The notes under the pieces: model-generated
What the model was told of the DNA's origin: nothing
Seen by the model: only the letters and a program-made list of their open reading frames with translations
Databases searched by the model: none
Program-made: the position numbers and the translations under genes
Source of the DNA: Methylacidimicrobium sp. B4
GTDB lineage: Bacteria; Verrucomicrobiota; Verrucomicrobiia; Methylacidiphilales; Methylacidiphilaceae
Length of the DNA: 64,000 bases
Assembly: GCF_017310545.1 (NCBI RefSeq)
Contig: NZ_CP066203.1
Span: 2,108,001 to 2,172,000, forward strand
Direction: 5' to 3'
Shown: piece after piece, positions 18,501 to 36,820 of the stretch
Position numbering within the stretch: the first letter of the stretch is position 1
Layout of the letters: every line of letters begins with the position of its first letter

Positions 18501-18785
18501 CGGCTCCCGCTTCCCGAGGCCCTTCTCGATGCGGCGGCCATCCGGCTCCGGCCCATCTTGATGACCTCCTTCGCGACCATCGCGGCGGCATTGCCTGCCG
18601 CATTGGGCGTCGGCCCCGGAGCCGAGGTGCGGAAGCCACTGGCGATCGTCGTGATCAGCGGGATCGTCGTGTCGACCTTCTTCACCCTCTTCGTCGTCCC
18701 CTGCGTCTATTCGCTCCTCGATCCGCTAAGCCGTCGCCAGGGCTTGGACGAGGTTGAAGCCGAGCTGGCGGAGTGCATCGAGTAA
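15570..18785 (+). CDS. RND-family efflux permease (copy 2)
   Basis: This is a 1071-residue AcrB-like pump overlapping the first by ATGA, so translation is probably coupled. The relay residues are intact: Asp438-Asp439 in GIVIDDSIMVLEN and Lys961-Asn962 in AMKNSILLVEF. It carries an extra Gly/Ala/Ser-rich insertion at about residues 245-290 in the first periplasmic domain, absent from copy 1. Paired RND genes such as mdtB/mdtC form heterotrimers, and the pair here may do the same. The tail is short and acidic, ending at 18785. Confidence 0.93.
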   Translation: MNVPELAIRRPVAAWMLMASLVFFGILCLFSLGISRLPDVTYPVLTVVAQWPGASPEVMEAEVVDPLEEVLMSVQGIRDVTSTIMQGVARIQLDFRLDRDIDAALQETNSRIRSVQLPYNVDPPVIFKVNQNDSPILWLAVTWDRPLKDIIRYVDTRVRDKFSLVQGVGDIQLGGWTDRSFRVWLDRNKLAQYQVAPNDVLNLFRAEYQETASGYLEGANNEINVRVMGEVRSPEEMGGLALNHRGGSGGANLPPLTGIASAQGGMAGAAGTTSYATNTLSNVRGPADSFTPLAQVARPEDGLMDPRRFARSDGVPSVGLGLQKLRGYNEIEVANSAKRIMAEIKPDLPSGMTIGTRYDSAVFTAEAIRETAFTLLFSIGVTTLVCLAFLGSFRTTVNVLFSIPISILGSFIFCRAMGFTLNFFTLLALSMAVGIVIDDSIMVLENITRHHRLGKSPERSALDGTREIFFAASAATLTIVSVFAPIAFLGGVVGKFLFQFGAVISCAVLISLLEALTLAPMRCAEFVSGARGPGPVENWLEGVYQKMGRVYRGFLGFALRRRWLVVLASFALFFLSLRVFPLLHRELAPSEDLGMALLRIETPVGSSLEYTSNRVQKLEAYLKSQPPVAHFFTTVGGYSGGEVNRGAIFVTLQPRKERKERLQEIIRTWRKEFKKPVYGDLHIKVIDISQSAFSSKRGTNIELSLRGSDYAVLQARAETILHQMEATGYYTDLDTDYRTGMPELEVIPDRQKAAESNISMQTLADVIGTAIGGMRQGQYTNREDNRRYDVRIRLEPGQWREPEDVANLPLWSGYGGEMIRLKDIAELRVVPKLLDITRENRRRAITLFANVKPEVSQAKALDTALAICQKELPPGYSVEPTGSSQTAKETFASFPVTFALGILLAYMLLGAQFNSFLYPLVVLVAIPFSLVGAFQGLYLTGMSLNIYSGIGIILLVGLAMKNSILLVEFFNKKRFEERLPLPEALLDAAAIRLRPILMTSFATIAAALPAALGVGPGAEVRKPLAIVVISGIVVSTFFTLFVVPCVYSLLDPLSRRQGLDEVEAELAECIE

Positions 18786-18932: not shown

Positions 18933-19315
18933 GCCGCAGGAGCGGGCAATGGCGGATCCCTCGGTCAAGCAGCGGATGACCAAGAGGTGGAGATTCAGCG
19001 CCGGAGGCGTTCAGAAGACGACCGAGGAGATCCAGGGCTTTCGGCCGCTCCCCTTGGGACCGACCTTCCGGTCAGCGACAGGGTAGGGATTGGAGTTCCC
19101 TGGCCGCCCTCCGCCGCAGGGGCGAGCGGCCATGGCTCTTTCCCGCCCACGGCTCATGGGCAGGACCCCCTGCATCCCATCCTGAAGCAGAGAGGGGTCT
19201 TCGAAGCTCCTCGCCTTTGTGGCGGAACGATCCGTTCCGCCATGAGAAGGCGGGAGGACGATGGCAGAGGCCTGTTCTTCTCATTGGCTGATCCTGCGTT
19301 GCGCAGCCATCACTC

Positions 19316-19354
19316 TGACATCGTTCTGTTACAGAAATGTAACAGCATTGTCAC
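19316..19354 (+). promoter_or_regulatory. Pho-box array in repeat unit 1 (upstream copy, receptor gene 1)
   Basis: Four hexamers spaced exactly 11 bp apart: TGACAT, TGTTAC, TGTAAC, TGTCAC. PhoB-type response regulators bind 11-bp direct repeats with a TGTCA-type core, two per dimer, so this could hold two dimers. It is 200 bp upstream of the promoter-proximal copy. Confidence 0.7.
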
Positions 19355-19515
19355 AATGAAGGGCAATGCTGCACCCAACGGGTGGATTCTGTACGGAGTC
19401 TCACATCTCCTCGCCTTTGTGCCGGGACGACCACGTCTGCCGTGAGAAGGCGGGAGGACGATGGCAGAGGCCTGTTCTTCTCATTGGCTGATCCTGCGTT
19501 GCGCAGCCATCACTC

Positions 19516-19554
19516 TGACATCGTTCTGTTACAGAAATGTAACAGCATTGTCAC
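19516..19554 (+). promoter_or_regulatory. Pho-box array, promoter-proximal (receptor gene 1)
   Basis: The same four 11-bp-spaced hexamers as in unit 1 (TGACAT, TGTTAC, TGTAAC, TGTCAC). The array ends 123 bp before the ATG. A conserved GGCATAGA element follows, with its CATAGA starting 24 bp after the array, at the same distance in all three receptor promoters; it is a candidate -10 region. Confidence 0.75.
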
Positions 19555-19677
19555 AACCGTTCTCCCCGCATTTGTGGCATAGAACCTTCGGCAGCCTTTG
19601 GAGATGCCGACAGATGAGGCGTTCCTCAATCCGAAGCGGCATGGCGACATCAGGAGATCTTTTGAGGAGGGGGAGGA

Positions 19678-22422
19678 ATGAAAGCCGGGGTATGGAGGCG
19701 GAAGGGACGAGATTTTCAGCTGGCTGGGCTTTTGATGGCATCGGCGCTCCTGATCGGAACCGTCCGCGCGGACGAGAGCAATTCCATCCCGGCCCCGACG
19801 GCGAGCGGGTCGACGACGGGCGAAACGACGGATAATGGCCAGGGGAGTGACCAGACGCCTGTCAGTGGGAGTGGAAAGGCGAAGCAATCAGGATGGACGG
19901 GGATCGTCCAGCAGACCGAGCCCGAAACGAAGAAAAAGAGTCAGAGTAGCGGCGGTGCGGTCAAGATGGAGGAGGTGACCGTCTCGGGAGAGACCGAGTG
20001 GATCTCTCCAGAACTGACCTCGGGGGAGCCCGACGCCCCCATCCTTCCCACGGCGGCTCCGGTGGTGTCCACGTTCGGGACGCCAATCAACGTGATGGAT
20101 GCGCCACGGCAGATCACGCCGGTCAACCAGACGCTGCTCAGGGCGTCGGGAGCCGTCTACCAGGGATATATGGATCCGCTCTCGATTTCCTCCATCCTTC
20201 CCACGGCCTACTCGGAGATGGACGGAGGCATGGGCAGCGCCGTGTCGATCCGCGGTCGCCAGGCCCTTCCCTACATCAATGGCATCGAGATGACCCTGCA
20301 GAACGATGGCATGCAGAGGATGCCCTGGAGTTGGAACATGGTAGAGAACATGGACATCCAGGAGGGCCCGGCCAACGCGGTTTTCGGCGCGACCCAGGCA
20401 TCAACTGGAAGTGTGAACTACATTACCAAGCAGCCCTACTTCGACAAGTTCCGGGGCCGGGTCTGGGACACGACCGGCATGTATCAGCAATACCTCTGGG
20501 GAGCGGATATGGGCGGTCCGGTCGACAAGGAGGGCAAGCTCGCCTGGCGCTTCTCGTACATGGGTCAGGACCAGGGCAGCTACTACCAGTACATGTACAA
20601 CCAGCAGCAGAACTTCTACTTCACGGTGGGATGGAAGCCCACCGACAACTACTCGGCCAACTTCTACGGCGACTACGGCATGTATGACTTCTATCCATTG
20701 CAAGCCGACTTGATGAACCGGCCGACCGACAACCTGATTCAAAACGGACTCTACAGCACCGGCGTGGTGCCCGGATTTCCCTACACCATCGCGAACGGAG
20801 GGCCGGCAACCGGCTCGAAAACAAACCCTTCCTACAACACCTATGCGGGACCTCTCACGCCGGTGAATCGGCGCGCGACAATCTGGACTCCATACGGAGG
20901 CGCCCATGCCAACAATGGGTTTGCCCAACTCGTGCAGACGGTACAAGTCAACGACGATCTGCAGATCGTGAATAACTCGCTTCTCTGGTATGCCAAGACC
21001 GAGTACCTGGAACCGCAGATCTACGAGGCAGTATACACTCCGGGCGACTATGAGTTCGACAACCGGACGGAGGTCCGGTGGACCTTCGATCCTCTCGCCA
21101 GCGAGCCCGATAAGCCAAAGTCCAAGGAGGAAAAAGGGCTCGAGAATGTCTTCGGCAAGCTCCTGCTGAAGAGCTCGGTTGACACCGGCGTAGAGTGGCA
21201 TTACGAATACCACGACGACTATGTCTCGGAGACCATCCCGGACTATGGCAACGCCTTCAGCGTGGTTAACCCAACGAATCCGGCGCTTGCCAACCCGGCG
21301 CTCTTCTACCTCCCGGGAACCAAGCAGTTCGACAGCCACATCAACAATCCACATGCCCCTAATGGAGGGCTCTGGCATATTCCCGGCGCTCCGGCGAACT
21401 GGTACTACGAACCACTGATTGGAAGCGCGGGAACGACCTTCGGCCACTATTGGGCCGTTGCGCCCTTTTGGCAGCACAACCTGCAGATCACCGAAAAATT
21501 CGCCCTCTATGTCGGCGCTCGCGCTACAGCATACTTCTGGCATTTCACAACCCCTCAGGGGCCTCCGGGAATGCCACAGATCGTGGGCCTGACGACGGCG
21601 TCGCTCGACCAGGACTCTTTGGCGCCCTTGATCAACATCAGCCCGACCTATAAGCCCTTCGATTGGATGATGACCTACTTCAACTACAACTGGTCCTACG
21701 TGAACAACGTGGCTGTGATGGGTGCGGCGGCTCCAACGTTCCAGTCCGCCTCGTTTCGCCTGTTAAACCAGTTGATCGAAGGCGGTATGAAGTTCAACCT
21801 GCTCAATGACAAGCTCTTCATCACCGCTGCCGGCTTCAGCCAGGATCAGGCACTCACCAACCTGGGCCAACCGCCGACCGCCGCGGCAATCAACGGATGG
21901 GAGGTGAACCTCGCCTACCAGCCGGATAAGCATTGGTGGCTGCGTGCCGGATACATAGACATGCACGGCGTCGAAAACTGGTCGTTCCTCCCGCACGGCC
22001 CCAAAATGCGCCAGGACTATTCGACGGCGATGGCCTTGCAGCAGATGTATGCGCTCAACACGAATGTCGGGCTCCCGTCCGGAATCTACAACATGATCGG
22101 CTTCCCGGATCAGTATGCGAGTGCGACGATCACCTACACCTCGGATATTGGTCTGGGGGGAACGTTGCAGGGGATCGTGATGAGCGATCAATACCTCGAT
22201 TATTTCGGCAGTGCCAAGATACCGACGCAGTATATTGTGAACGCCCAGATCTTTTACGCCCAGCCGAAGTGGGAAGCAAGGGTCTATATCTACAACGTTA
22301 CCAATAACAACTACTGGCTGCCGTTCGGCCTCGGGTCGGCGGGCGGCCGCACGTTCAACGAGACTTCGATCGTCGCGGGCTGGCCCTTCTGGATCGAAGG
22401 GAATGTCGTTTTCAAGTTTTAG
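19678..22422 (+). CDS. TonB-dependent outer membrane receptor 1
   Basis: The 914-residue precursor has a signal peptide (MKAGVWRRKGRD, then a hydrophobic core ending TVRA), a low-complexity Ser/Thr/Gly region, a TonB-box-like MEEVTVSG, a plug domain at about 125-260 (TPINVMDAPRQITPVNQ, SIRGRQALPYINGIEM, IQEGPANAVFGATQAS) and a beta-barrel ending in a terminal Phe (VVFKF). It should import a ligand across the outer membrane using TonB energy. Translation starts after GAGGGGGAGGA. The body is very close to receptor 3, whereas the signal peptide and upstream DNA match receptor 2. Pho-box arrays upstream suggest induction by phosphate limitation; the ligand is unknown. Confidence 0.93.
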   Translation: MKAGVWRRKGRDFQLAGLLMASALLIGTVRADESNSIPAPTASGSTTGETTDNGQGSDQTPVSGSGKAKQSGWTGIVQQTEPETKKKSQSSGGAVKMEEVTVSGETEWISPELTSGEPDAPILPTAAPVVSTFGTPINVMDAPRQITPVNQTLLRASGAVYQGYMDPLSISSILPTAYSEMDGGMGSAVSIRGRQALPYINGIEMTLQNDGMQRMPWSWNMVENMDIQEGPANAVFGATQASTGSVNYITKQPYFDKFRGRVWDTTGMYQQYLWGADMGGPVDKEGKLAWRFSYMGQDQGSYYQYMYNQQQNFYFTVGWKPTDNYSANFYGDYGMYDFYPLQADLMNRPTDNLIQNGLYSTGVVPGFPYTIANGGPATGSKTNPSYNTYAGPLTPVNRRATIWTPYGGAHANNGFAQLVQTVQVNDDLQIVNNSLLWYAKTEYLEPQIYEAVYTPGDYEFDNRTEVRWTFDPLASEPDKPKSKEEKGLENVFGKLLLKSSVDTGVEWHYEYHDDYVSETIPDYGNAFSVVNPTNPALANPALFYLPGTKQFDSHINNPHAPNGGLWHIPGAPANWYYEPLIGSAGTTFGHYWAVAPFWQHNLQITEKFALYVGARATAYFWHFTTPQGPPGMPQIVGLTTASLDQDSLAPLINISPTYKPFDWMMTYFNYNWSYVNNVAVMGAAAPTFQSASFRLLNQLIEGGMKFNLLNDKLFITAAGFSQDQALTNLGQPPTAAAINGWEVNLAYQPDKHWWLRAGYIDMHGVENWSFLPHGPKMRQDYSTAMALQQMYALNTNVGLPSGIYNMIGFPDQYASATITYTSDIGLGGTLQGIVMSDQYLDYFGSAKIPTQYIVNAQIFYAQPKWEARVYIYNVTNNNYWLPFGLGSAGGRTFNETSIVAGWPFWIEGNVVFKF

Positions 22423-22464
22423 TGGGTAGGGCTTGCCTTCGTCCGCAGCTTCCCGCCGTTCCTT

Positions 22465-22620
22465 GGGAAGTGGGGAGCGATGGTGCTTCAGAAACCCAAG
22501 TGCCCTTGCCCCGAATACCGCCCGAAGGGTCGGTCGGTGCTTCTGCTCCTCGGAGAGGCCGAAGGGGCTCGGGGCAGCCACGGTCCCGCCATCGGCGCCC
22601 CTTTTTGGAGGGAGAGACGG
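22465..22620 (+). pseudogene. Decayed TPR-gene fragment downstream of receptor gene 1
   Basis: In one frame the sequence reads VLLLLGEAEGARGSHGPAIG (about 22534-22593), aligning with LLLLGEAEALRGRYGPAID in the intact TPR gene at 33038-34843; DNA identity is high over about 22532-22618. The preceding 60 bp resemble the fragment downstream of receptor gene 3 (GAAGTGGGGAGCGA at 22467). There is no open frame with a start and no full repeat. The remaining 22423-22693 holds nothing else recognisable. Confidence 0.6.
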
Positions 22621-22802
22621 GGTGGTTCGCCAGTGTCTCGTGGGAAAGGTAGCGCTGCGCCCCTTCGAACGGAGGAGAGCGGGATCCTCGAAGCTCCTCG
22701 CCTTTGTGCCGGAACGATCCGTTCCGCCGCGAGAAGGCCGGAGGACGATGGCGGAGGCCTGCTCTTCTCATTGGCTGATCCTGCGTTGCGCAGCCATCAC
22801 CC

Positions 22803-22841
22803 TGACACCGTTTTGTCACAGAAATGTAACAGCATTGTCAC
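22803..22841 (+). promoter_or_regulatory. Pho-box array, distal copy (receptor gene 2)
   Basis: Hexamers at 11-bp spacing: TGACAC, TGTCAC, TGTAAC, TGTCAC. This is the closest match to the PhoB half-site among the upstream copies. It is 400 bp from the proximal array. Confidence 0.7.
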
Positions 22842-23002
22842 AATGAAGGGCAATGCTGCACCCAACGGGTGGATTCTGTACGGAGTCTCACATCTCCTCG
22901 CCTTTGTGCCGGGACGACCACGTCTGCCGTGAGAAGGCGGGAGGACGATGGCAGAGGCCTGTTCTTCTCATTGGCTGATCCTGCGTTGCGCAGCCATCAC
23001 CG

Positions 23003-23041
23003 TGACACCGTTTTGTCACAGAAATGTAACAGCATTGTCAC
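23003..23041 (+). promoter_or_regulatory. Pho-box array, middle copy (receptor gene 2)
   Basis: The same four hexamers (TGACAC, TGTCAC, TGTAAC, TGTCAC) at 11-bp spacing, exactly 200 bp downstream of the distal array. Confidence 0.7.
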
Positions 23042-23202
23042 AATGAAGAGCAATGGCGTACCGCACGGCGGGGGTCTGTACAGGGTCTCACATCTCCTCG
23101 CCTTTGTGCCGGGACGACCACTTCCTCCGTGAGAAGGCCGGAGGACTATGGCGGAGGCCTGCTCTTCTCATTGGCTGATCATGCGTTGCGCATCCATCAC
23201 TC

Positions 23203-23241
23203 TGACATCATTCTGTCACCGAAATGTAACAGCATTGTCAC
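23203..23241 (+). promoter_or_regulatory. Pho-box array, promoter-proximal (receptor gene 2)
   Basis: TGACAT, TGTCAC, TGTAAC, TGTCAC at 11-bp spacing. The array ends 123 bp before the ATG, as for receptor gene 1. The conserved GGCATAGA follows, with CATAGA starting 24 bp after the array at 23265. Confidence 0.75.
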
Positions 23242-23364
23242 ACCCGTTCTCCCCGCATTTGTGGCATAGAACCTTCGGCAGCCTTTGGAGACGCCGACAG
23301 ATGAGGCGTTCCTCAATCCGAAGCGGCATGCCGACATCAGGAGATCTTTTGTTGAGGGGGAGGA

Positions 23365-26214
23365 ATGAAAGCCAGGGAATGGAGCCGGAAGGGACGAGAT
23401 TCTCAGATGGCTGGGCTTTTGATGGCATCGGCGCTCCTGATCGGAACCGTCCGCGCGCAAGATCCCTCGGTGGGTCCGGCCCCTCTCGTGAGCGGAGACG
23501 AGAGCTCGCCAGCCGCCGGAAGCCTGTCGGGTGGCCCTGGATCCTGGGACCAGAGCGGGGCTGAGGCAGAAGCGTTGGGAAAGGGTGGCGTATTCGGCGG
23601 AGGTGCCTCGCAGCAGCCCTTAGAGGATCTCCTGCGCACTCAGCCTCTCCTGGCGGATGCTTCGAGCGCTTCCGGGACCAAAGGCGGAGCTGACCCTGCG
23701 GCGTCTTCTTCCTCTTCTCCGTCCTCGGCCGCTCTGGCCAATCCTGGAACTGGTAAGGTCGTGATGCCGGAAACGCTCGTGACTGCCACGAGCGAATCGG
23801 TTCTTCCCGGAGACTACGACGTTGGCTCGGTCTACGGGACGCCGCTCAACGTCGTCGACACCCCGCGGAGCGTCCAGGTCATTACCCAGCAGGAGATCCA
23901 GTCATCGGCCTTCATTTCCCAAAACGTCATGTCCCTGATGTACATGGCTCCCGGGCTCTTCATGGGTACGACCTTTGGCGAATTCTCCGTTCCCAACATC
24001 CGGGGCATGCCAGCGAACAAGTACATCAACGGGATGCTCTCCTTTTTGCCCGGTACCGGCTACGAGGGCGGACCGATGAACATGAATGACTTTGACCAGA
24101 TCAACATCGTTCAGGGGCCAACGATGCCGAGCTTGCTCTCGATCCGCGCGGCGGGCGGCTATCTCGACGTCCAGACCAAGCGGCCCTACTGGGACGGGTT
24201 CCATGGAACGGCGACCGTCATGGAAGGCATGTACGATCAGAACCTCTGGCAGGTGGACGTGGGGGGGCCGATCAACGACAAGCTCGCCTTTCGGTTCAGC
24301 TACCTGGGGGACTATTCCGGAAGCTATTACGAAAACGACTACCTGCACAACCAGGCCTTTTACGGGGCGCTCTCCTTCAAGCCGTACGACAACTACGAGA
24401 TCTTCTTCAACAATTCCTTCTACACGGAAGGCTACAACGAGATTGGCGGCATCAACCGGCCGACCCAGGCGTTGATCTCGGATCACCAGTATCTCTCCGG
24501 ATATCTGCCGAATACCTATCTTGGCCCGCCGGTTTATATCGATCATCACAAGGTGAACTACAATATCGGTCCGGAGTTGTACGACTACGGAGTATCGGTC
24601 CTGCCGCAGAATTACAATACGCTCCACTACGTTCCGCTCTCGGCGATCGGTGGGTATCGCGCCAACATGCTTAACCCGGGATCAGGCGGTTTCGTCGAAA
24701 GCGAGCGGGCGCAGATCATCCAAAGGATCAATGTGGATGATGGATTTCAAATCGTAAATAATAGCAACTTTGAATGGTTCACATACAACTACCAGAATCT
24801 AACGCCATATAACATCTATACTCCCGGATCCTGGGTCGCGCAGAACAACACCTCGTTCATCCTGAATTTTGACACCCCGATCGGCGGGAGCGGCGAAAAA
24901 GGAGAGAAGGAAAGCCTGGTCGACCAGAAGAATCCTCCGCTGAAGGGAGAGGGGTTCCGCATCCATCACACGGTCAACGCGGGATTCGAGGCCGACTATG
25001 CCAACATGATCGTCTACGAGGGCGATTTCGAGCAGGTGTTCAACGTCTGGAACATGGGACCATTGGCGAATGCCGTCTATCCATCCTATTTTCAATACAA
25101 CGTCCCGGGTACACCGCAGTTCAGCAAGTACCTGTATCAAGACGTGCCGATTCCCGGAAGATCCGGCCAGGTCTTCAACCCGGGTAACTTCAGCTCGACC
25201 GATTCGGAAACCTGGTACTTGCGGCCCTACTGGCAGCATCAGATCGACTTTGGCGAGCACTTCTCGATCTTTATGGGAGCGAGCGCGTTGGCCTTGCTCT
25301 CCACGGCGCAGAACCCGGTGGGGACCCCCGGCACCTACTACGACTTCGGTGAAGCTCTCCACCCAGGAGGACAATACTTTTCCACCGTCATTCCCAACTT
25401 CGACTTCAGCCCGCGCTGGAAGCCCAACGAGTGGACAACCGTCTACTTCGATTTCCAGCAGGCCTTCCTGGCCGAAACAGGGGCCTTCTACGGAGTCTCT
25501 CCCTTGACCTCCAACTACGACCTTCACCTCCATCAGCGGCTCTACAGCGGGGGGGTCAACTTCAGCCTGCTCAATGGGAAGCTCAACATCTTGACCGCTG
25601 CCTTTGACCAGGAGTTCCAGGAATTGGAGTCCTTCAACAAGGTGCTCCTGGTGCCGGTTCCGATCGATGTCGTGGGCGGAACCCTGCAGGTGGCCTATCA
25701 GCCGGACCGCCATCTCTGGCTCGTCGCCAATGCGTCGTATATCCTGGGGAGCTTCGACTATGGTTCCCCGCTCACCACGGGCCCGAGCATGGACCAGCCC
25801 TATCCGAGCAACTACGTGTTGAACAATCCGGCGAAGTATCCCTTCGACAACTTCGGCTATTTCCCACAGGGGTCATATCCCTATGTGGGCTGGCCCAACT
25901 TCCAGACTTCTTTCATGGCAACCTATACGCTCGATTGCGGCCTGGGTTTTTTTGCCTCCTTCAACGCAACCAGCCCTCAGTATCTCGCCTACGACTATCT
26001 CACCCGCATTCCCTGGCAGTACACGCTCAATTTGGGCCTGAGCTATACGAGCCCCGATAAGCATTGGGTAGGGAGGCTCTGGATCTGGAACGTCACCGAT
26101 CAGCACAACTGGATGACCAGCGGGAGCGGCTACGCGACCTCGTTCAACAATTACGATCAACTCATGGTCTCGATGCCGTTCTGGATCCAAGGGCAGCTGA
26201 GCTATCAATTTTAG
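23365..26214 (+). CDS. TonB-dependent outer membrane receptor 2
   Basis: The 949-residue precursor has the same signal peptide as receptor 1 (GLLMASALLIGTVRA), then a long Ser/Ala/Gly-rich region of about 90 residues, a TonB-box-like ETLVTAT, a plug domain (TPLNVVDTPRSVQVITQQEI, VPNIRGMPANKYINGM, INIVQGPTMPSLLS) and a barrel ending in Phe (QLSYQF). Beyond the signal peptide it is only distantly related to receptors 1 and 3, so it probably takes a different ligand. The TPR gene starts 13 bp after its stop and a secreted phosphoesterase follows, suggesting an operon under the three Pho-box arrays. Start: ATG after GAGGGGGAGGA. Confidence 0.92.
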   Translation: MKAREWSRKGRDSQMAGLLMASALLIGTVRAQDPSVGPAPLVSGDESSPAAGSLSGGPGSWDQSGAEAEALGKGGVFGGGASQQPLEDLLRTQPLLADASSASGTKGGADPAASSSSSPSSAALANPGTGKVVMPETLVTATSESVLPGDYDVGSVYGTPLNVVDTPRSVQVITQQEIQSSAFISQNVMSLMYMAPGLFMGTTFGEFSVPNIRGMPANKYINGMLSFLPGTGYEGGPMNMNDFDQINIVQGPTMPSLLSIRAAGGYLDVQTKRPYWDGFHGTATVMEGMYDQNLWQVDVGGPINDKLAFRFSYLGDYSGSYYENDYLHNQAFYGALSFKPYDNYEIFFNNSFYTEGYNEIGGINRPTQALISDHQYLSGYLPNTYLGPPVYIDHHKVNYNIGPELYDYGVSVLPQNYNTLHYVPLSAIGGYRANMLNPGSGGFVESERAQIIQRINVDDGFQIVNNSNFEWFTYNYQNLTPYNIYTPGSWVAQNNTSFILNFDTPIGGSGEKGEKESLVDQKNPPLKGEGFRIHHTVNAGFEADYANMIVYEGDFEQVFNVWNMGPLANAVYPSYFQYNVPGTPQFSKYLYQDVPIPGRSGQVFNPGNFSSTDSETWYLRPYWQHQIDFGEHFSIFMGASALALLSTAQNPVGTPGTYYDFGEALHPGGQYFSTVIPNFDFSPRWKPNEWTTVYFDFQQAFLAETGAFYGVSPLTSNYDLHLHQRLYSGGVNFSLLNGKLNILTAAFDQEFQELESFNKVLLVPVPIDVVGGTLQVAYQPDRHLWLVANASYILGSFDYGSPLTTGPSMDQPYPSNYVLNNPAKYPFDNFGYFPQGSYPYVGWPNFQTSFMATYTLDCGLGFFASFNATSPQYLAYDYLTRIPWQYTLNLGLSYTSPDKHWVGRLWIWNVTDQHNWMTSGSGYATSFNNYDQLMVSMPFWIQGQLSYQF

Positions 26215-26878: not shown

Positions 26879-29770
26879 GTGCGTCGCCCCAATTCAGCCG
26901 CTGCCAGGTGGATGGTTCCACGGCCGCCCGGAAAAAGCCTCCGGCGGCTCGTGATGCTGATGGCTGCTCTGGTCGGTTGCTTGCCCTGGCCACCCTCTGG
27001 TTGGGCCGATGAGCCCAAGGAGAGTCGAGAGACCCTGAGGAAGGCTCTGCTTCCTACCGGCGTGCGGATCGATCTCTCCCCGATCCGGGATCTCCGCCTC
27101 GACCCTCTCTCGGTGGGTTCCGGAGAGACCAGGCTGCCGGTCTCCGGCTCCTTTGCGATGGCGAGGAGCCCTGCGGGCGATACGTTGCTCGTCCTCAGCT
27201 CAGGGTACAACAAGCGATTCGGGCCCGATGGGAAGGCGATTCCCGAGCTCTCGCACGAATACGTCTTCGTCTTCGACATCTCCCAAGGCCCTCCAGAGCA
27301 AAGGGCCGCCATTCCTCTCCCGAGCTCCTTTTGCGGCATCGATTGGAATCCAGACGGGAAGGAGTTCTACGTCTCAGGCGGGGGAGAGGATCAGGTCTAC
27401 GTTTTTGCAAAAACTGGAGACGGCTGGGCATCGCCCCGTCCCCCGCTTCCCTTGGGGCACGAGAGGGGGAATGGGATCGAAACCCGGCCGCTGGCCGCCG
27501 GGCTGCGGGTCGATCCGGAGGGGCAGCTCCTGCTCGTCGCCAACTACGCCAACGACTCGGTCACCCTGATCCAAATCGCCGATGGGAAGAAGGTTGCCGA
27601 GCTCGACTTGCGACCGGGGAAGATCGATCCCAAGGAGCGGGGAATCCCCGGCGGGGAGTATCCGATCGATGTCGCTTGGGTGGGAAGGGAGAAGGCGTAT
27701 GTCGCCAGCCTTCGGGATCGGGAGATCGTGGTCGTCGGGATCAAAGCGGGGAAGATGCGCGTTTTGGGCCGAATTGCCCTCCCGGGCCAGCCGAACCGGA
27801 TCGTGGTCAACCGCGATCGGAGCCGAGCCTACGCGACCGAGGACAACTCGGACCAGGTTGCCGTGATCGACACGGAGGCCGATCGGCTCATCGAATCGAT
27901 CCCCTGCGTTTCCGAGCCGCGCGCCGCCCATTCCGAAGAACCGCGCAAGGGAGCCTCTCCCAACAACCTCTGCCTCGATCCATCGGAGAAGCTTCTCTAC
28001 GTCACCAATGGCGGGATGAACGGCCTCTCGGTGATCGAGCTTGGTTCCGAGGCGCGGGGAATCGCAGGCCGGGCGGAGGAGGGGCGCAAGGAGTCGAGGA
28101 GCAGGGTGGTCGCCCTGATCCCGACCGGATGGTACCCGACGGCGGTTGCGAGCAACCCGAGCGGGAGCTGGCTCTACGTGGCGACGGGAAAGAGCGTGGC
28201 GGGGCCAAACGACCAGGGTTGCCCCCGCCCTCTTCCCGAGCCTCGCGACTTCTTCCAGAGTTGGAGGTCAAAAAACGAGTATATCCTCCAGAAGGCGCTG
28301 GGGCAGCTGCAGAGCTTCCCGCGACCCGATCCGGCGCTCTATCGGGAGCTCTCCGAGCGGGTTTGGCGGAATAACCAGAGGCTCGACCCGGCCCGAGGCG
28401 ACGAAGCCGTTCTACGAACGCTGCGCCGGCGCATCCGCCATATTCTCTATGTCGTCAAGGAAAACCGCGGCTATGACCAGCTCTTCGGCGACTTGAAGAA
28501 GGGAGATGGGGATCCGAGCCTCGCCATCTTGGCTCCCTACTGCCCGAATGAGCGCCGGCTGGCCGAACAATTCGTGCTCTTGGACAACTTCCTCGATAGC
28601 GGAGAGGTGAGCGGAGATGGCTGGAACTGGAGCACGGAGGCCCGGGCCACCGACATTACCGAGAAGACGGTTCCCCTCCACTACGCCGGCCGAGGGCCGA
28701 CCTACGATTTCGAGGGGGAGAACCGGAACATCGCCGTCGGCCTGGCGAGCCAGGAGGAGAGGAAGAGAGCGGATCCCGCACTTCCCGAGGATCCCGATCT
28801 CCTCCCCGGAACCCGGAGTGTCGCCGCTCCGGATGGTCCCGAGGGAGAGGTGGGGTTGGGCTACCTCTGGGATGCGGCCTTGCGTCAGGGAATCAGCGTC
28901 CGCAACTATGGCTTCTTCGGCGATCTGACCCGATACCATCTCCCCAAGGAGAATCCTTTCTTCGTTCCCCTTTCGCGGCACCCCTTTGCCGAGAAGACGA
29001 TTCAGTTCATCCCGGACAATCCTACGCTGGCCAAGGTGAGTGACCTCTACTACCGGGGCTTCGACATGAAGTATGCCGACTACTGGCGGTACAAGGAGTG
29101 GGAGCGCGAGTTCGATGAGTATGCGAGGAAGGGAAATCTCCCCGCCCTGGAGCTGATCCGGCTTCCCCACGACCATTTCGGCTCCTTCCGGGAGGCGGCG
29201 GACAAGGTGGACACGGTCGAGGCGCAGATGGCGGATAACGACTTTGCGGTCGGCCTTCTCGTGGAGAAGATCGCTCGAAGCCGCTACAAGGATGACACGC
29301 TCATCTTTGTCGTCGAGGATGATGCGCAGAACGCCGCGGATCATGTCGATGCCCATCGGAGCATCGCCCTTGTGGCGGGCCCCTACGTCAAGCGGGGGGT
29401 GACCATCCGCCGGAGGTATACCACCGTGAGCGTTCTGAAGACGATCGAGGAGATTCTCGGCTTTGGCCCGCTCTCCTTTTACGACCAGGGTGCCGAGCCC
29501 ATGACCGACCTCTTTGATCTGGCGGAGCGAAGTTGGACCTACCAGGCGGTCGTGCCCGACGCCCTGCTCGGGACTAACCTTCCCGTCGACGGCCGGGAAC
29601 GGATCGGAGCCCCTGGCCGACACGACGCCGCTTTTTGGGAGCGGCTCCTGGGTGATCAGGATTTCTCGGACGCAGACCGGCTCGATCCGGAGCGATTCAA
29701 TCGCGCCTTGTGGACAGGCTTGAAAGGGAAGGACGCTCCCTGGCCGATTTCTTCCGTAAAGGGCCAGTAG
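26879..29770 (+). CDS. Secreted YncE-like beta-propeller / alkaline-phosphatase-superfamily phosphoesterase
   Basis: The 963-residue protein has a signal peptide (LRRLVMLMAALVGC, cleavage near GWADE). An N-terminal propeller follows with repeated blades (ANYANDSVTLIQIADG; NRIVVNRDRSRAYATEDNSD; KLLYVTNGGMNGLSVI), then a phosphoesterase domain from about residue 510 (VVKENRGYDQLFGDL, later FVVEDDAQNAADHVDAHRS with the metal-ligand Asp/His cluster). Proteins of this two-domain type are annotated as YncE/alkaline phosphatase family. It would hydrolyse phosphate esters outside the inner membrane. GTG 26879 is shown; ATG 26912 also gives a good signal peptide. Its place behind a Pho-box-controlled receptor supports phosphorus scavenging. 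Confidence 0.88.
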   Translation: MRRPNSAAARWMVPRPPGKSLRRLVMLMAALVGCLPWPPSGWADEPKESRETLRKALLPTGVRIDLSPIRDLRLDPLSVGSGETRLPVSGSFAMARSPAGDTLLVLSSGYNKRFGPDGKAIPELSHEYVFVFDISQGPPEQRAAIPLPSSFCGIDWNPDGKEFYVSGGGEDQVYVFAKTGDGWASPRPPLPLGHERGNGIETRPLAAGLRVDPEGQLLLVANYANDSVTLIQIADGKKVAELDLRPGKIDPKERGIPGGEYPIDVAWVGREKAYVASLRDREIVVVGIKAGKMRVLGRIALPGQPNRIVVNRDRSRAYATEDNSDQVAVIDTEADRLIESIPCVSEPRAAHSEEPRKGASPNNLCLDPSEKLLYVTNGGMNGLSVIELGSEARGIAGRAEEGRKESRSRVVALIPTGWYPTAVASNPSGSWLYVATGKSVAGPNDQGCPRPLPEPRDFFQSWRSKNEYILQKALGQLQSFPRPDPALYRELSERVWRNNQRLDPARGDEAVLRTLRRRIRHILYVVKENRGYDQLFGDLKKGDGDPSLAILAPYCPNERRLAEQFVLLDNFLDSGEVSGDGWNWSTEARATDITEKTVPLHYAGRGPTYDFEGENRNIAVGLASQEERKRADPALPEDPDLLPGTRSVAAPDGPEGEVGLGYLWDAALRQGISVRNYGFFGDLTRYHLPKENPFFVPLSRHPFAEKTIQFIPDNPTLAKVSDLYYRGFDMKYADYWRYKEWEREFDEYARKGNLPALELIRLPHDHFGSFREAADKVDTVEAQMADNDFAVGLLVEKIARSRYKDDTLIFVVEDDAQNAADHVDAHRSIALVAGPYVKRGVTIRRRYTTVSVLKTIEEILGFGPLSFYDQGAEPMTDLFDLAERSWTYQAVVPDALLGTNLPVDGRERIGAPGRHDAAFWERLLGDQDFSDADRLDPERFNRALWTGLKGKDAPWPISSVKGQ

Positions 29771-30131
29771 GGCAAAAGCTCTCGCCTCCGAAGGCTCGCG
29801 GGAAGGGTAGCGCTGCGCCCCTACGAATGGACAAGAGCGGGATCCCGAAGCTCCTTGCCTTTACGTGCGGCCGACGATTTTTACAGTGAAAAGCCCGGCG
29901 AGCGACGGGACGAGTGCGCTCTACACATTGCTCACGAACGTGTTATAACTTAAGGAGAGTAACACCATTTCGTCACACAAATGTCACAGGATTTTCACAA
30001 CCTTTCCGCCCGGACTTATGGCATAGAGGTTCGGGCGATTTTTAGATCGGCTGGCGGATACCGCATTCCTAAATCCGCATCGGCAAGACGAGGTCGCGAC
30101 AGTATCTGGAGGCATCGGAGGAGGACGAGGA
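29771..30131 (+). other. Intergenic promoter region of receptor gene 3 with one diverged repeat unit
   Basis: The 361-bp gap starts with a diverged version of the repeat-unit leader: GGTAGCGCTGCGCCCCT and GAGCGGGATCC near 29805-29848 match the DNA just before unit 1 of receptor gene 2. A single Pho-box array follows, then a leader whose spacing and GGCATAGA element match the other two promoters. There is no tandem duplication here. The start codon is preceded by GAGGACGAGGA. Confidence 0.7.
29960..29998 (+). promoter_or_regulatory. Pho-box array (receptor gene 3)
   Basis: Four hexamers at 11-bp spacing: TAACAC, CGTCAC, TGTCAC, TTTCAC. The surrounding sequence has diverged from the other receptor promoters but the spacing is kept, which argues for function. 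The array ends 133 bp before the ATG; CATAGA begins 24 bp after it, at 30022. Confidence 0.75.
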
Positions 30132-32876
30132 ATGAAACGAGGTGAGTGGAAGAGGAAGAGACGAGGATTTCCGCTATCCGGGTTTTTGATTGCATCGGCG
30201 CTCTTGATCGGGACGGTCCACGCGGACGAGAGCGATTCCACCCCGGTCCCGACGGCGAGCGGCTCGGCGACGGGCCAAACCACCGAGAACGGCCAGGGGA
30301 ATGACCAGACCCCCGTCAGTGGGAGTGGAAAGGCGAAGCAATCGGGATGGACGGGGATCGTCCAGCAGACCGAGCCCGAAACGAAGAAAAAGAGCCAGAG
30401 TAGCGGAGGTGCGGTCGAGATGCAGGAGGTGACCGTCTCGGGTGAGTCGGAGTGGACCTCGCCCGACCTGACCTCGGGGGAGCCCAACGCCCCCATCCTG
30501 CCCACGACGGCTCCGGTGGTCTCCACATTCGGGACGCCAATCAACGTGATGGATGCGCCGCGGCAGATCACGCCGGTCAACCAGACGCTGCTCCGGGCGT
30601 CGGGAGCCCCCTATCAGGGATTTATGGATCCGCTTTCGATCTCCTCCATCCTCCCCACCGCCTACACGCAGTTCAATTGGGGGATGGGTAATGCCGTGAC
30701 GATCCGCGGTCGGCAGGCCAATCCCTACATCAACGGCATCGAGATGACCATGCAGGACGATGCCGTTCAAATGTTTCCCTTTAGTTGGAACATGGTGGAG
30801 AACATGGACATCCAGGAGGGCCCGGCCAACGCGGTCTTTGGGGCGACCCAGGCGTCGAGCGGAAGTGTGAACTACATCACGAAGCAGCCCTACTTCGATC
30901 AGTTCCGGGGCCGGGTCTGGGACACGACCGGCATGTATCAGCAATACCTCTGGGGAGCGGATCTGGGCGGTCCGGTCGACAAGGAGGGAAAGCTCGCCTG
31001 GCGCTTCTCCTACATGGGTCAGGACCAGGGCAGCTACTACCAGTACATGTACAACCAGCAGCAAAACTTCTACTTCACAGCCGGATGGAAGCCCACCGAC
31101 AACTACTCGGTCAACTTCTACGGCGACTACGGCATGTATAACTGGTATCCGCAGGCCTTCGACCTCATGAACCGGCCGACCAACAACCTGATTCAAAACG
31201 GACTCTATAGCACCGGGGTGGCGCCGGGATTTCCCTACAGTGTCGCGCAGGGAGGACCGGTAACTGGCTCAGCAATCAATCCCCCCTACAATACGTACGC
31301 GGGACCGCTGGCGGGGGTGAACCGGCGCGCGACGATCTACAGCCCCTACGGGGGCGGGAACGCCAACAGTGGGATGGCTCAGCTCGTGCAGACGGTGCAA
31401 GTCAACGACGATCTCCAGATCGTGAACAATTCGTTGCTCTTGTATACCAAGACCGAGTGGTTGGAGCCGCAGCTCTACTCGGAAATGTATACTCCGGGCG
31501 ACTATGAGTTTGACAACCGGACGGAGGTCCGGTGGACTTTCGATCCTCTCGCCAGCGAGCCCGAGAAGCCGAAGACCAAGGAGGAAAAAGGGCTCGAGAA
31601 TGTCTTTGGCAAGCTCCTGCTGAAGAGCTCGGTCGATACCGGCATCGAATGGCACTACCAATACAACGACGACTATTTCTCGACCACCGCCTGGGCCGCT
31701 GGGAACTCCTGGAGCATCGTGAACCCGACGAATCCCGCGCTCGCCAACCCGGCGCTCTTCTACCTTCCGGGAACCACGCAGTTCAATAGCTTCGTCAACA
31801 ATCCGAAAGCCGGCGCGGGCGGCCTCTGGCATGTTCCCGGCGCTCCGGCGAACTACTACTACAGCCCGCTCAGCGGCTCCGGGGGAAGCACTTTTGGCCA
31901 CTATTGGGAGATTTCGCCATTCTGGCAGCACAATCTGCAGATCACGGACAAATTCGCGCTCTATTTCGGCGTGCGAGCTTCGGCCTACTTTTGGGATTAT
32001 ACGACGCCGCAGGGGCCGGCTGGAATGCCGCAGATCCCAGGGCTGACGACGGCATCGGTCAATGAGGACTCGATCGCGCCCTTGATCAACATCAGCCCGA
32101 CCTATAAGCCGTTTGACTGGATGACCGCCTACTTCAACTACAACTGGTCTTATGTGAACAATGTGGGCGTGCTCGGCGGTGCGGCACCTAACTTCAACGC
32201 CGCTTCGTTTCGGCTCCTGAACCAGTTGATCGAAGGAGGCATCAAGTTCAACCTGCTCAGTGACAAGCTCTTTATTACCGCTGCCGGGTTTACCCAGGAG
32301 CAGCAGCTCAACAACATTGCCCTGCCGGCAACCCCCGCGATCATCACCGGATATGAGGTGAACATCGCCTACCAGCCGGATAAGCACTGGTGGGTGCGTG
32401 CCGGATACATCGACATGCACGGGGTCGAAGATTGGTCGTCGATCTCGACTGGACCCAGCATGCGGCAGGACTATTCGACGGCATACGCCTTGCAGCAGAT
32501 GTACGCCCTCAACACGAATGTCGGCCTTCCGTCCGGAGTCTACAACATGATTGGGTTCCCGGAGCAGTATGCGAGTGCGACGATCACCTACACCTCCGAC
32601 ATGGGGTTGGGCGGTACAGTGCAGGGGATCGTGATGAGCGATCAATATCTGGACTACCTGGGAACGGCCAAAATTCCGACGCAGTATATTTTGAATGCTC
32701 AGATCTTCTATGCGCGGCCGAAGTGGGAGGCGAGGATCTATATCTACAACTTTACGAATCAGAACTACTGGCTGCCGGCGGGCTTGGGATCGGCGGGAAG
32801 CCGCGCCTTCAACGAGAGCGAGATCGTTGCAGGCTGGCCCTTCTGGATCGAAGGGAATGTCGTCTTCAAGTTTTAG
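30132..32876 (+). CDS. TonB-dependent outer membrane receptor 3
   Basis: The 914-residue precursor is the same length as receptor 1 and nearly identical along the mature part (for example VTVSGE, TPINVMDAPRQITPVNQ, IQEGPANAVFGATQAS, terminal VVFKF). Differences cluster in segments that should be extracellular loops, such as residues around 195-215 and 345-400. The signal peptide differs (MKRGEWKRKRRG, ending TVHA). It should be an outer-membrane active-transport channel. Its single Pho-box array suggests phosphate control. Downstream are a decayed TPR fragment and an intact TPR gene. Confidence 0.93.
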   Translation: MKRGEWKRKRRGFPLSGFLIASALLIGTVHADESDSTPVPTASGSATGQTTENGQGNDQTPVSGSGKAKQSGWTGIVQQTEPETKKKSQSSGGAVEMQEVTVSGESEWTSPDLTSGEPNAPILPTTAPVVSTFGTPINVMDAPRQITPVNQTLLRASGAPYQGFMDPLSISSILPTAYTQFNWGMGNAVTIRGRQANPYINGIEMTMQDDAVQMFPFSWNMVENMDIQEGPANAVFGATQASSGSVNYITKQPYFDQFRGRVWDTTGMYQQYLWGADLGGPVDKEGKLAWRFSYMGQDQGSYYQYMYNQQQNFYFTAGWKPTDNYSVNFYGDYGMYNWYPQAFDLMNRPTNNLIQNGLYSTGVAPGFPYSVAQGGPVTGSAINPPYNTYAGPLAGVNRRATIYSPYGGGNANSGMAQLVQTVQVNDDLQIVNNSLLLYTKTEWLEPQLYSEMYTPGDYEFDNRTEVRWTFDPLASEPEKPKTKEEKGLENVFGKLLLKSSVDTGIEWHYQYNDDYFSTTAWAAGNSWSIVNPTNPALANPALFYLPGTTQFNSFVNNPKAGAGGLWHVPGAPANYYYSPLSGSGGSTFGHYWEISPFWQHNLQITDKFALYFGVRASAYFWDYTTPQGPAGMPQIPGLTTASVNEDSIAPLINISPTYKPFDWMTAYFNYNWSYVNNVGVLGGAAPNFNAASFRLLNQLIEGGIKFNLLSDKLFITAAGFTQEQQLNNIALPATPAIITGYEVNIAYQPDKHWWVRAGYIDMHGVEDWSSISTGPSMRQDYSTAYALQQMYALNTNVGLPSGVYNMIGFPEQYASATITYTSDMGLGGTVQGIVMSDQYLDYLGTAKIPTQYILNAQIFYARPKWEARIYIYNFTNQNYWLPAGLGSAGSRAFNESEIVAGWPFWIEGNVVFKF

Positions 32877-32954: not shown

Positions 32955-33041
32955 GAGCGAGCGGTTCGAAAATCCAAACGCGCGCTTGCCCTGAATCCGC
33001 AGGCGCGCAATATCAGCTTAAACGCGAGGGGGACGGGGTGA
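32955..33041 (+). pseudogene. Decayed TPR-gene fragment downstream of receptor gene 3
   Basis: The frame reads ERAVRKSKRALALNPQARNI and ends with TGA at 33039-33041, a typical last half of a TPR motif. The stop overlaps the GTG of the next gene. The DNA aligns with 22465-22530 downstream of receptor gene 1. No start codon or complete repeat remains. Confidence 0.5.
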
Positions 33042-34843
33042 CCAATGGGAGATGGGGTGGCTGCGGGCGGAACGTGTGCCGAATCGCCATCGCCCTGCTT
33101 GCCGCTGGAATCGTCGGATGGTGCGTGCCGACCGAGGTCTCTGCCGGCTCGGAATCCTGGGAAAGTCGCCTGGTCGACCTGAGGGTCGTAACGAAGAGTG
33201 GGAGCGAGCGGGCCCTTCGTGGGATCGTCGTTTCGGCGGATGGCCGGCTGCTTACGGTTTCAGCGGGTCTGGAGGATGCCTCTCGCATTACGGCCAAGCG
33301 CTGGAACCTTCGGCCCATCCGCTGCACGGGGTGGCTTGCCGCGGACCCGGGAACGGGTTTGGTGCTCTTGCAGGTGGAAGGGGTCGATCTCTCCGCCGTC
33401 CGCATCCTAGCGCCGGACAATTTGCCACCGGAAGGTGGAGAGACCTTTACGGTCCCTCGACCGAGCACGGAGGACCCCAAGGGGGAAGCGGCCTTCCTTC
33501 GGATCCCGGCGCCGGAGCTCCCGGCCGGCAGCGGAGAGCTGCTCTGGCTGGGGGGCAAGGTAGAAGAGATCCTGCCGGGGAGCCCGGTCTTCAACGAACG
33601 GGATCAGTTCGTCGGCTTGGTACGGATCGTGGATGCCGACAATCACCGCCTGGGAGTGGTGCGTGTGAGCGCGCCGCTGGAGATGCTCGATCGGGCCGAC
33701 TTGGCGGCGGAGGCGGCGGCCGTGCGGCAGAGCATGGAAAAGCTGGCGGCGCGGGGGCAGGACCCCGCGGTAACCAATAGCCCGGCGTGGCGGGATCTGC
33801 AGGGTGCGGTTGGCCCGAAGGAAGCGGAAGCGGCGGCCGATCGGCTCGTCGCGGCCGCTCCCCGGTCCGCGTCGGCCTGGACCGTCGCGGCGTTCGCCTA
33901 CTTGCAGGGGAGGGCGCTTGAAAAGGCCGAGTTTGCCGCCAAGAAGGTGGTCGCCTTCTTCCCGCAGGATCCGTCGGCGCTGCTGCTCCTCGGGGAGGCC
34001 GAAGCGCTCCGGGGCCGCTATGGTCCCGCCATCGACGCCTTTCTGGAGGCCAAGGAGCGGGGAGCTTCGGCAGCGGAGGTTTCGCTGCTCCTTGGGAAGT
34101 GCTTTTTCGCGGAGCGGCAGTGGGAGAAGGCGTGCGATGAGTTTCGCGCCTATCTCCGCTTCCGGCCCAGGCATACTTCTGCCTGGCTAGCCCTCGGAGA
34201 GGCGCTGCTCAAATCGCAGAGCTGCGAGGAAGCGGCCAAAGCCTATACGCGGGCGGCACGCCTCAATCCCCAGTCGGTTCGCGCCTGGGCGGGGATGGCG
34301 GAGAGCTATCGGGTTGCGAAGCGTTGGGAAGACGCGGCTTCCGCCTACACCGAGCTGACCCTGCTCGAGCCGAAGAACAGTGGAGCCTGGTTTAACCTGG
34401 GGCTCGCCCTCCTGCACAGCGAGCAGCTCCCTTTTGCCCGCGCGTCCTTCCTTCGGGTCGTTCAGCTCAATCCCAAAGACCGGGAAGGTTGGTTTAACCT
34501 TGCGGTGCTGAGCCAGAGGGCCCGGGATGCGCGAACGGCCATTCAAGCCTACCGGAAGGCGCTCGAGATCGATCCGAGCTTCGGCGCGGCCTGGTTTAAC
34601 CTGGGCGTAGTGCTTCGGGAGATCCGCCGCTACGAAGCGGCGTCCTTGGCCTGGAAGAAGGCCGAGGCCTTTCTTCCCGGCGATGTCCGTCCGGTCGCCA
34701 ACCTCGCCCTGCTCGAGGAGGCGCTCCACCGTCCTTCGGAGCGGGACCTCGAGCTGCAAAAGCTCGACACCATGGATGCGGGACTCGCCCAGCAGATCCG
34801 GTCTCAGATTGCGCTCGGCGCGCGGCAGGCTCAGCAGCAGTAA
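33038..34843 (+). CDS. Secreted protein with degenerate trypsin-like domain and C-terminal TPR array
   Basis: The 601 residues comprise a signal peptide (IAIALLAAGIVGW, cleavage near VSAGS), a domain of about 190 residues with the layout of a DegP-type protease (GIVVSADGRLLTVSAG, DPGTGLVLLQVEG, PGSPVFNERDQFVGLV), and at least seven TPR units (for example AWFNLGLALLHSEQLPFARA). In DegP-type enzymes the His of TNxHVV, the Asp of TDLAVL and the Ser of GNSGGP are catalytic; here the first two positions read TVSAG and TGLVLL and the Gly-rich Ser motif is PGSPV. The domain is probably a non-catalytic binding module. The start is GTG. Confidence 0.8.
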   Translation: MTNGRWGGCGRNVCRIAIALLAAGIVGWCVPTEVSAGSESWESRLVDLRVVTKSGSERALRGIVVSADGRLLTVSAGLEDASRITAKRWNLRPIRCTGWLAADPGTGLVLLQVEGVDLSAVRILAPDNLPPEGGETFTVPRPSTEDPKGEAAFLRIPAPELPAGSGELLWLGGKVEEILPGSPVFNERDQFVGLVRIVDADNHRLGVVRVSAPLEMLDRADLAAEAAAVRQSMEKLAARGQDPAVTNSPAWRDLQGAVGPKEAEAAADRLVAAAPRSASAWTVAAFAYLQGRALEKAEFAAKKVVAFFPQDPSALLLLGEAEALRGRYGPAIDAFLEAKERGASAAEVSLLLGKCFFAERQWEKACDEFRAYLRFRPRHTSAWLALGEALLKSQSCEEAAKAYTRAARLNPQSVRAWAGMAESYRVAKRWEDAASAYTELTLLEPKNSGAWFNLGLALLHSEQLPFARASFLRVVQLNPKDREGWFNLAVLSQRARDARTAIQAYRKALEIDPSFGAAWFNLGVVLREIRRYEAASLAWKKAEAFLPGDVRPVANLALLEEALHRPSERDLELQKLDTMDAGLAQQIRSQIALGARQAQQQ

Positions 34844-36346: not shown

Positions 36347-36820
36347 ATGAGCTGGGAACAGGTGGGCGCCTTGATCGGGGCCGTCGTCGGCATCGTGTTG
36401 ATCGGGATCGGCTGGATTGCGCTTCGATTGAAGGCTCTCTATCGCCGCCTGGAGGAGGTAGCGCAGGATCTCCACGAGACGCGGTCCGACCTCGGCGCTT
36501 GGGAAAAGGAGCTCCGCACCGTCCGGTCGGAAGCGCAGACCATGCGAGGGGAGCTGCAGAGCACGCGCGGGGAGTTGCAGAACCTCCGATCGGAAATGCA
36601 CGATCATTGGTCGACGATGGCGAGTGTCAAGCAGGTGCTCCACCGGGAGCTTCCCGATCAGGCGAGCTCCGGCGGGGTGCTGCCCGCGGTCGCCGCCATG
36701 GCGGAGCCTGCACCCGCACCCGAGCCCACCCGCGCACCGTCTGTGGCTTCGGCGGGCCAGGGGAAGCCGACGGCGAGCGACTGGCTCTGGCAGGAGACGC
36801 TTCGGCGGCTAAGCGGATAG
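36347..36820 (+). CDS. Small single-pass membrane protein with coiled coil
   Basis: The 157 residues start with one transmembrane helix (IGAVVGIVLIGIGWIALRL), followed by a predicted coiled coil with imperfect heptads (about 30-95; repeats such as MRGELQSTRGELQNLRSEM), then an Ala/Pro-rich linker and a short C-terminus ending WLWQETLRRLSG. A strong ribosome binding site (AGGAAGGAGG) 6 bases before ATG 36347 decides the start, although the frame is open upstream. It overlaps the convergent parA-like gene by 12 bp. No family was recognised. Confidence 0.75.
   Translation: MSWEQVGALIGAVVGIVLIGIGWIALRLKALYRRLEEVAQDLHETRSDLGAWEKELRTVRSEAQTMRGELQSTRGELQNLRSEMHDHWSTMASVKQVLHRELPDQASSGGVLPAVAAMAEPAPAPEPTRAPSVASAGQGKPTASDWLWQETLRRLSG

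Follow-up and report, generated by a model that had tools for sequence, protein, structure and literature searches.

Two receptor genes of Methylacidimicrobium sp. B4 are each preceded by near-identical 200-bp units in tandem, and this locus raises the question of which regulator would use these units and what the extra copies may contribute. The window analysed here is a stretch of 64,000 nt (positions 2,108,001 to 2,172,000 of contig NZ_CP066203.1), and coordinates are those of the window unless a contig (C) or locus (L) is named; related genomes are cited by our handles (G). The two genes encode the TonB-dependent receptors (TBDRs) TBDR1 and TBDR2; TBDR3 lies further downstream in the window, and TBDR4 is encoded elsewhere in the genome. 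We consider that the hexamer arrays in front of these genes are probably Pho operators of a phosphate-starvation regulon, and give this reading, taken as a whole, a probability of about 0.75.

Tandem units, arrays and the core promoter

Sequence comparison bore out the original prediction of five unit copies, starting at 19207, 19407, 22694, 22894 and 23094 with a period of exactly 200 bp; two of them precede TBDR1 and three precede TBDR2. The copies are 88.7–96.7% identical in pairs (over the common 150 bp), and in the last unit of each set the match is restricted to the first ~150 bp, after which the receptor promoter starts. All five units carry four hexamers at exact 11-bp spacing, as had been claimed, with arrays starting at 19316, 19516, 22803, 23003 and 23203, one per copy; the chance expectation of this four-hexamer pattern in the window, estimated with shuffled sequence, is 0.00. 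The hexamers had been described as of the TGTCAC type, which holds in the wider form TGTMAC but not for every site: the first is TGACAC/T, the second is TGTTAC at TBDR1, and the third is TGTAAC. When the genome was scanned for the 200-bp unit, as had been suggested, the five known copies were recovered and no sixth significant copy was found in the single contig of 2.37 Mb, so that a dispersed 200-bp repeat is ruled out.

19207..19406, plus strand: distal 200-bp unit of TBDR1, with a four-site array and without a core promoter
19316..19354, plus strand: distal TBDR1 array TGACAT-TGTTAC-TGTAAC-TGTCAC, 11-bp spacing
19407..19556, plus strand: promoter-proximal unit of TBDR1, comprising 150 bp of the full unit and running into the core promoter
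19516..19554, plus strand: promoter-proximal TBDR1 array TGACAT-TGTTAC-TGTAAC-TGTCAC, 11-bp spacing
22694..22893, plus strand: distal one of the three TBDR2 units (200 bp), with its array at 22803-22841 and without a core promoter
22894..23093, plus strand: middle one of the three TBDR2 units (200 bp), with its array at 23003-23041 and without a core promoter
23094..23242, plus strand: promoter-proximal unit of TBDR2, with its array at 23203-23241 and running into the core promoter

Each unit had also been proposed to be a promoter module, and this was not supported. In the proximal arrays of the TBDR1-3 type, both in this genome and across the genus, the last hexamer is followed after exactly 23 nt by CATAGA, TATAGA or CATAAA, mostly embedded in an extended TGTGGCATAGAAC, and we infer that this hexamer is the -10 element. 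The resulting putative core promoter, TGTMAC-N23-YATARA, occurs at all proximal TBDR1-3 arrays with a spacing fixed across the genus, and at none of the distal units. In both distal units and in the middle one the sequence at the N23-YATARA position is unrelated, and these units therefore represent additional arrays in front of a single promoter. A scan of the region with the sigma-70 consensus gave no match. The TBDR3 array has diverged, has different flanking sequence and lies outside any 200-bp unit, and its promoter keeps the 23-nt spacing.

19578..19583, plus strand: TBDR1 -10-like element CATAGA (in extended TGTGGCATAGAAC), 23 nt past the last hexamer
23265..23270, plus strand: TBDR2 -10-like element CATAGA, 23 nt past the last hexamer
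29960..29998, plus strand: four-site TBDR3 array TAACAC-CGTCAC-TGTCAC-TTTCAC
30022..30027, plus strand: TBDR3 -10-like element CATAGA, 23 nt past the last hexamer

The similarity between the TBDR1 and TBDR2 loci extends well beyond the units. From the upstream region through the leader to codon ~33, the two loci are ~91% identical over 580 bp, and the match can be drawn in two overlapping registers (19144-19556 with 22628-23043, 90.9%; 19194-19775 with 22882-23462, 90.7%). The homology stops just beyond the near-identical signal peptide, and the mature part of TBDR2 is only 34% identical to TBDR1. Because receptors so distant share nearly identical upstream and signal-peptide DNA, operator units, promoter and signal-peptide codons must have been copied between the two genes as one block, judging from the sequences, in either direction; the number of units appears to have diverged later by unequal exchange. 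In the tree TBDR1 and TBDR3 are sisters (support 100/97) and both stand near TBDR3 of other species, and the TBDR2 orthologue of G005 has a different start and a contiguous array of eight sites.

19144..19775, plus strand: copied block at TBDR1, with the flank and two 200-bp units, the core promoter, the leader and the codons of the signal peptide
22628..23462, plus strand: copied block at TBDR2, with the flank and three units, the core promoter, the leader and the codons of the signal peptide

Probable assignment of the arrays to a Pho regulon

The claim that an 11-bp array of the PhoB type lies upstream of TonB-dependent receptors was supported, and the set of genes sharing the motif is in good accord with phosphorus acquisition. 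Our genome scans are pattern searches with limited mismatches, in which weak boxes may be missed; TGTCAC-N5-TGTMAC with at most one mismatch gave 22 matches genome-wide and the reversed pattern gave none. The matches are concentrated at few loci: the TBDR1-3 cluster, TBDR4 with an acid phosphatase gene downstream (TIGR03397, 413.7 bits), exbB-exbD-tonB, a gene for a 353-aa outer-membrane beta-barrel protein, and C1:164543. Phosphoesterases of PF04185 are present in both separate array-bearing TBDR clusters. In E. coli the PHO box consists of direct repeats of 11 nt, with seven conserved and four loose positions and the core CTGTCAT, upstream of phosphorus-acquisition genes (PMC4415409); here, likewise, there are at least two 11-bp direct repeats with a TGTCA-type core, and they precede such genes (PF04185 and TIGR03397) in two TBDR clusters.

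At C1:164543 (L078:4044), TGTCACGCAATTGTAAC stands isolated upstream of an open reading frame that resembles TMEM175-type channels by eye; another TBDR gene ends some 2.4 kb away.

Arrays recur in relatives. In the other Methylacidimicrobium genomes they are located upstream of the orthologues of the outer-membrane protein gene and of TBDR2, TBDR3 and TBDR4, and Methylacidiphilum has them before its TBDR2, TBDR3 and outer-membrane-protein orthologues; none was found at 12 other related TBDR loci of the two genera (39–70% identity to TBDR1). To examine pstS, we scanned 800 bp upstream at 30 Verrucomicrobiota loci with a matrix built from the present arrays and a threshold of 15 bits. Five of the 30 loci exceeded this threshold, including one of the same family (G012), as against 0/30 reversed controls, and the motif stands 130–261 bp upstream, for example TGTCACACAAACGTAACAG at -148 and TGTTACAAGATTGTCACAA at -160. 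The genome also encodes a PhoB-like regulator (C1:1302012; 235 bits to TIGR02154, the best of 12 matches), followed by a gene for a PhoR/PnpS-like kinase, and PstS, PstB and PhoU score above their curated cut-offs. The recognition helix of the PhoB candidate is RTVDTHVRRLR, which we take to be close to that of E. coli PhoB.

Several observations weigh against this assignment. None of the seven Methylacidimicrobium genomes has such a box at the pst operon, and before phoB likewise none was found; the PhoB candidate and the kinase both miss the curated NCBIfam cut-offs (235 of 296 bits and 331 of 400 bits); the 23 nt from the last core hexamer to the -10-like element exceed the 10 bp reported for E. 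coli (PMC1906773); this N23 geometry is not shared by the exbB, TBDR4 and outer-membrane-protein promoters; and a few arrays of the same motif in sister genomes precede genes without recognised function. Another regulator of the OmpR/PhoB family, such as a metal or envelope-stress sensor, might be considered as the binder, with the TBDRs importing a metal complex and the phosphatases being incidental. At least six OmpR-type regulators are encoded in the genome, 11-bp direct repeats are known elsewhere in this family (ArcA, PMC3798270), TBDR1 and TBDR3 have weak matches to ferrichrome/ferrioxamine receptors, and the motif-free pst operon of the genus would suit this explanation as well. It is hard, however, to reconcile with the occurrence of PF04185 phosphoesterases in both clusters, with the motif before pstS in other Verrucomicrobiota and with the fit of the core to the E. 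coli Pho box CTGTCAT (PMC4415409), and we regard it as improbable. Support for the Pho assignment comes from the adjoining genes for phosphoesterase and acid phosphatase, from the inclusion of exbBD-tonB in the motif set, from the motif before pstS elsewhere in the phylum, and from the PhoB/PhoR-like pair and phoU.

C1:1822814-1826682 (L051): pst operon

Two further groups of arrays were noticed in relatives. In G003, G004 and G006, a conserved element resembling AACCGCTTGYCCG comes after three- to four-site arrays (L158, L159, L162, L163, L164), and the operons behind them have no Pfam matches; G003 and G006 each carry two paralogous copies. In Methylacidiphilum (L170, L171, L174, L175), TGTAAC triplets in 11-bp register have sigma/ParB-like genes on one side and, on the other, genes of which one weakly matches TrbC/VirB2; we do not claim a link to conjugation, which would rest on this single sub-threshold TrbC match.

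The genes of the TBDR cluster in the window are as follows.

19678..22422, plus strand: TBDR1, TonB-dependent receptor-like outer-membrane protein, 914 aa, with an FhuA/FoxA-like plug region
23365..26214, plus strand: TBDR2, TonB-dependent receptor with plug domain PF07715, 949 aa
26228..26833, plus strand: small TPR-repeat protein, 201 aa, at the same position in G005
26879..29770, plus strand: 963-aa protein with an N-terminal YncE/YVTN-type beta-propeller and a C-terminal PF04185 phosphoesterase
30132..32876, plus strand: TBDR3, 914 aa, 82% identical to TBDR1
33038..34843, plus strand: TPR protein, 601 aa, with a weak trypsin-like match, downstream of TBDR3 in relatives too

The PF04185 match of the 963-aa protein scores 26.8 bits with a cut-off of 23, and the AlphaFold model of this protein has a mean predicted local distance difference test (pLDDT) score of 42; its gene adjoins TBDR3 also in G002, G005 and G006. 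The closest named relatives of the receptors are those of Methylacidimicrobium tartarophylax, M. cyclopophantes and strain LP2A. Similar intergenic stretches, GGTAGCGCTGCGCCCCT, occur upstream of TBDR2 (22640-22690) and TBDR3 (29800-29850) and are possibly a short dispersed repeat. Elsewhere in the window, the second of two neighbouring RND permease genes (15570-18785) matches the AcrB family in two stretches and the other in one, and a 21-bp tandem repeat of 2.2 copies is present at 36535-36581.

Long contiguous arrays at TBDR4

The largest arrays of this type are found outside the region of the 200-bp units, at the TBDR4 promoters.

L050:7522-7642, about C1:151521-151641, minus strand: eleven contiguous 11-bp half-sites upstream of TBDR4 and the acid phosphatase gene

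Six genomes of the genus have TBDR4 arrays spanning 121–165 bp, with 11 units in this genome and in G002, 12 in G005, 13 in G003, 14 in G006 and 15 in G004, and the gaps in their alignments are always whole multiples of 11 bp. Mean pairwise identity is 0.72 for the cores and 0.40 for the spacers, a comparison biased toward the cores, through which the arrays were located, and taken here as support only. The logo from 65 units is YGTMAC, with G2, A5 and C6 strongest, and a reversed-sequence control gave no array in 1 Mb. Among 388 genomes sampled from the whole phylum, arrays of six units of this motif are confined to the genus except for two cases that we set aside: the match in G302 (G302:C32:23898-23969) is a minisatellite with an 11-bp period, TGTAATTGGGG, which imitates a row of half-sites, and the array in G191 adjoins a ComM-like gene, and in the stretch examined around it we recognised no phosphate gene.

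Comparison with known systems shows both the likeness and the difference in length. The E. coli PHO box differs from the present arrays not only in the promoter spacing and the motif-free pst operon mentioned above, but also in its core, which here is YGTMAC, and in the number of units, which here is at least four at receptor genes and up to 15 in a contiguous row. Streptomyces PhoP operators (pitH2, glpQ1 and glpQ2) similarly have multiple direct repeat units of 11 nt, which are of graded quality and are reported to be filled cooperatively, pitH2 having four core and two ancillary units; the maximum reported there is six units (PMC7866108) and the core is GTTCACC. E. coli ArcA, of the OmpR/PhoB family, binds direct repeats mostly 11 bp apart from centre to centre, of which two to five set site length and occupancy (PMC3798270); its motif and physiology differ, and five units are not exceeded. 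The Pho boxes of cyanobacterial SphR also are tandem repeats before phosphate genes, with at least three repeats of 8 bp separated by 3-bp linkers (PMC1906773), but these arrays are shorter, the core is CTTAACCT and duplication of units is not reported. An example of the filament-like binding that long arrays suggest is Streptomyces BldC, which forms a head-to-tail oligomer on a variable number of direct repeats (PMC5859096), although it is an unrelated MerR-like regulator with 9-bp repeats. The 11–15 contiguous half-sites therefore exceed the published counts that we found (at most six); since subscription papers were mostly beyond our literature search, we do not call these arrays the longest known.

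Proposed operation of the arrays and the extra units

When phosphate is scarce, a PhoB-type response regulator would most likely bind the tandem 11-bp half-sites (YGTMAC-N5) head-to-tail, and phosphorylated PhoB would most likely fill the proximal array, 23 nt upstream of the extended -10 (YATARA), and recruit polymerase to the N23-YATARA promoter. We infer from the sequence PhoB as the binder, activation, the response to phosphate and cooperative binding along the arrays. The regulon thus switched on would serve outer-membrane phosphorus scavenging and comprise the TBDRs with their phosphatases, as well as the ExbB-ExbD-TonB motor and one outer-membrane protein. At TBDR1 and TBDR2, the array with ~110 bp of upstream sequence was duplicated as two and three 200-bp units, respectively. 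The distal units, which stand roughly 200 and 400 bp farther out, would be at most auxiliary PhoB sites and may be passengers of duplication; the operator of TBDR4 and the acid phosphatase gene has grown by whole 11-bp units.

Tandem near-identical units are often troublesome in assembly, but an assembly or repeat artefact is very improbable here, because the copies carry distinct substitutions, being 3–11% apart, and the genome is a single 2.37-Mb contig; the junctions are consistent with ordinary duplication. The original prediction saw in the extra units a control of sensitivity or gain, which means that they would be functional remote PhoB sites that raise the sensitivity or cooperativity of the proximal promoter, perhaps via looping at integral helical turns. 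In line with this, four half-sites are kept in all five arrays, the period corresponds to 19.05 turns at 10.5 bp, TBDR2 has the higher copy number, and more sites may be favoured at TBDR2, where a sister species has eight contiguous ones. The distal units, however, lack a -10 element, and tandem units were found in none of 12 other genomes of the family; moreover, array columns vary about as often among the units (5/39) as non-array columns (16/107), so that conservation gives no argument for a function of the extra copies. In E. coli the spacing from box to core promoter is reported to be strict, and many PhoB sites away from promoters, among them many inside genes, to be inert (PMC10294691). 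Such a gain control thus obtained no comparative support, and we consider it rather unlikely.

There is roughly an even chance that a recent segmental duplication, with gene conversion between the upstream regions of TBDR1 and TBDR2, left the extra units behind as neutral by-products. This explanation accords with the high identity across the whole block, including the non-regulatory flank and the signal-peptide codons, with the restriction of the tandem units to one species and with the lack of extra constraint on the arrays; on the other hand, all arrays are intact and only 2/24 core columns vary, a divergence too small to be telling. A recent duplication with little or weak effect is the explanation that we favour over gain control for the extra 200-bp units. 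A broader and tentative idea, which we hold possible but doubtful, is that PhoB forms a polymer on uninterrupted arrays of as many as 15 half-sites (165 bp), and that gain and loss of whole 11-bp units together with the 200-bp duplication form an evolvable dial for the phosphate threshold of each receptor operon, pst having left the regulon.

In the literature searched we found no earlier study of Pho boxes in the acidophilic methanotrophs of this group. The present analysis outlines for them a probable outer-membrane phosphorus-scavenging regulon consisting of TBDRs, phosphatase and ExbB-ExbD-TonB, in which pst has no detectable Pho box. The main interest lies in the arrays of 11–15 units and their unit-wise variation. 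Models of response-regulator operators commonly assume one or two dimers. Orthologous promoters with 11–15 half-sites in strict 11-bp register, together with the 200-bp duplication in one species, provide a natural copy-number series, which is suited to asking how the number of half-sites sets threshold, cooperativity and output.

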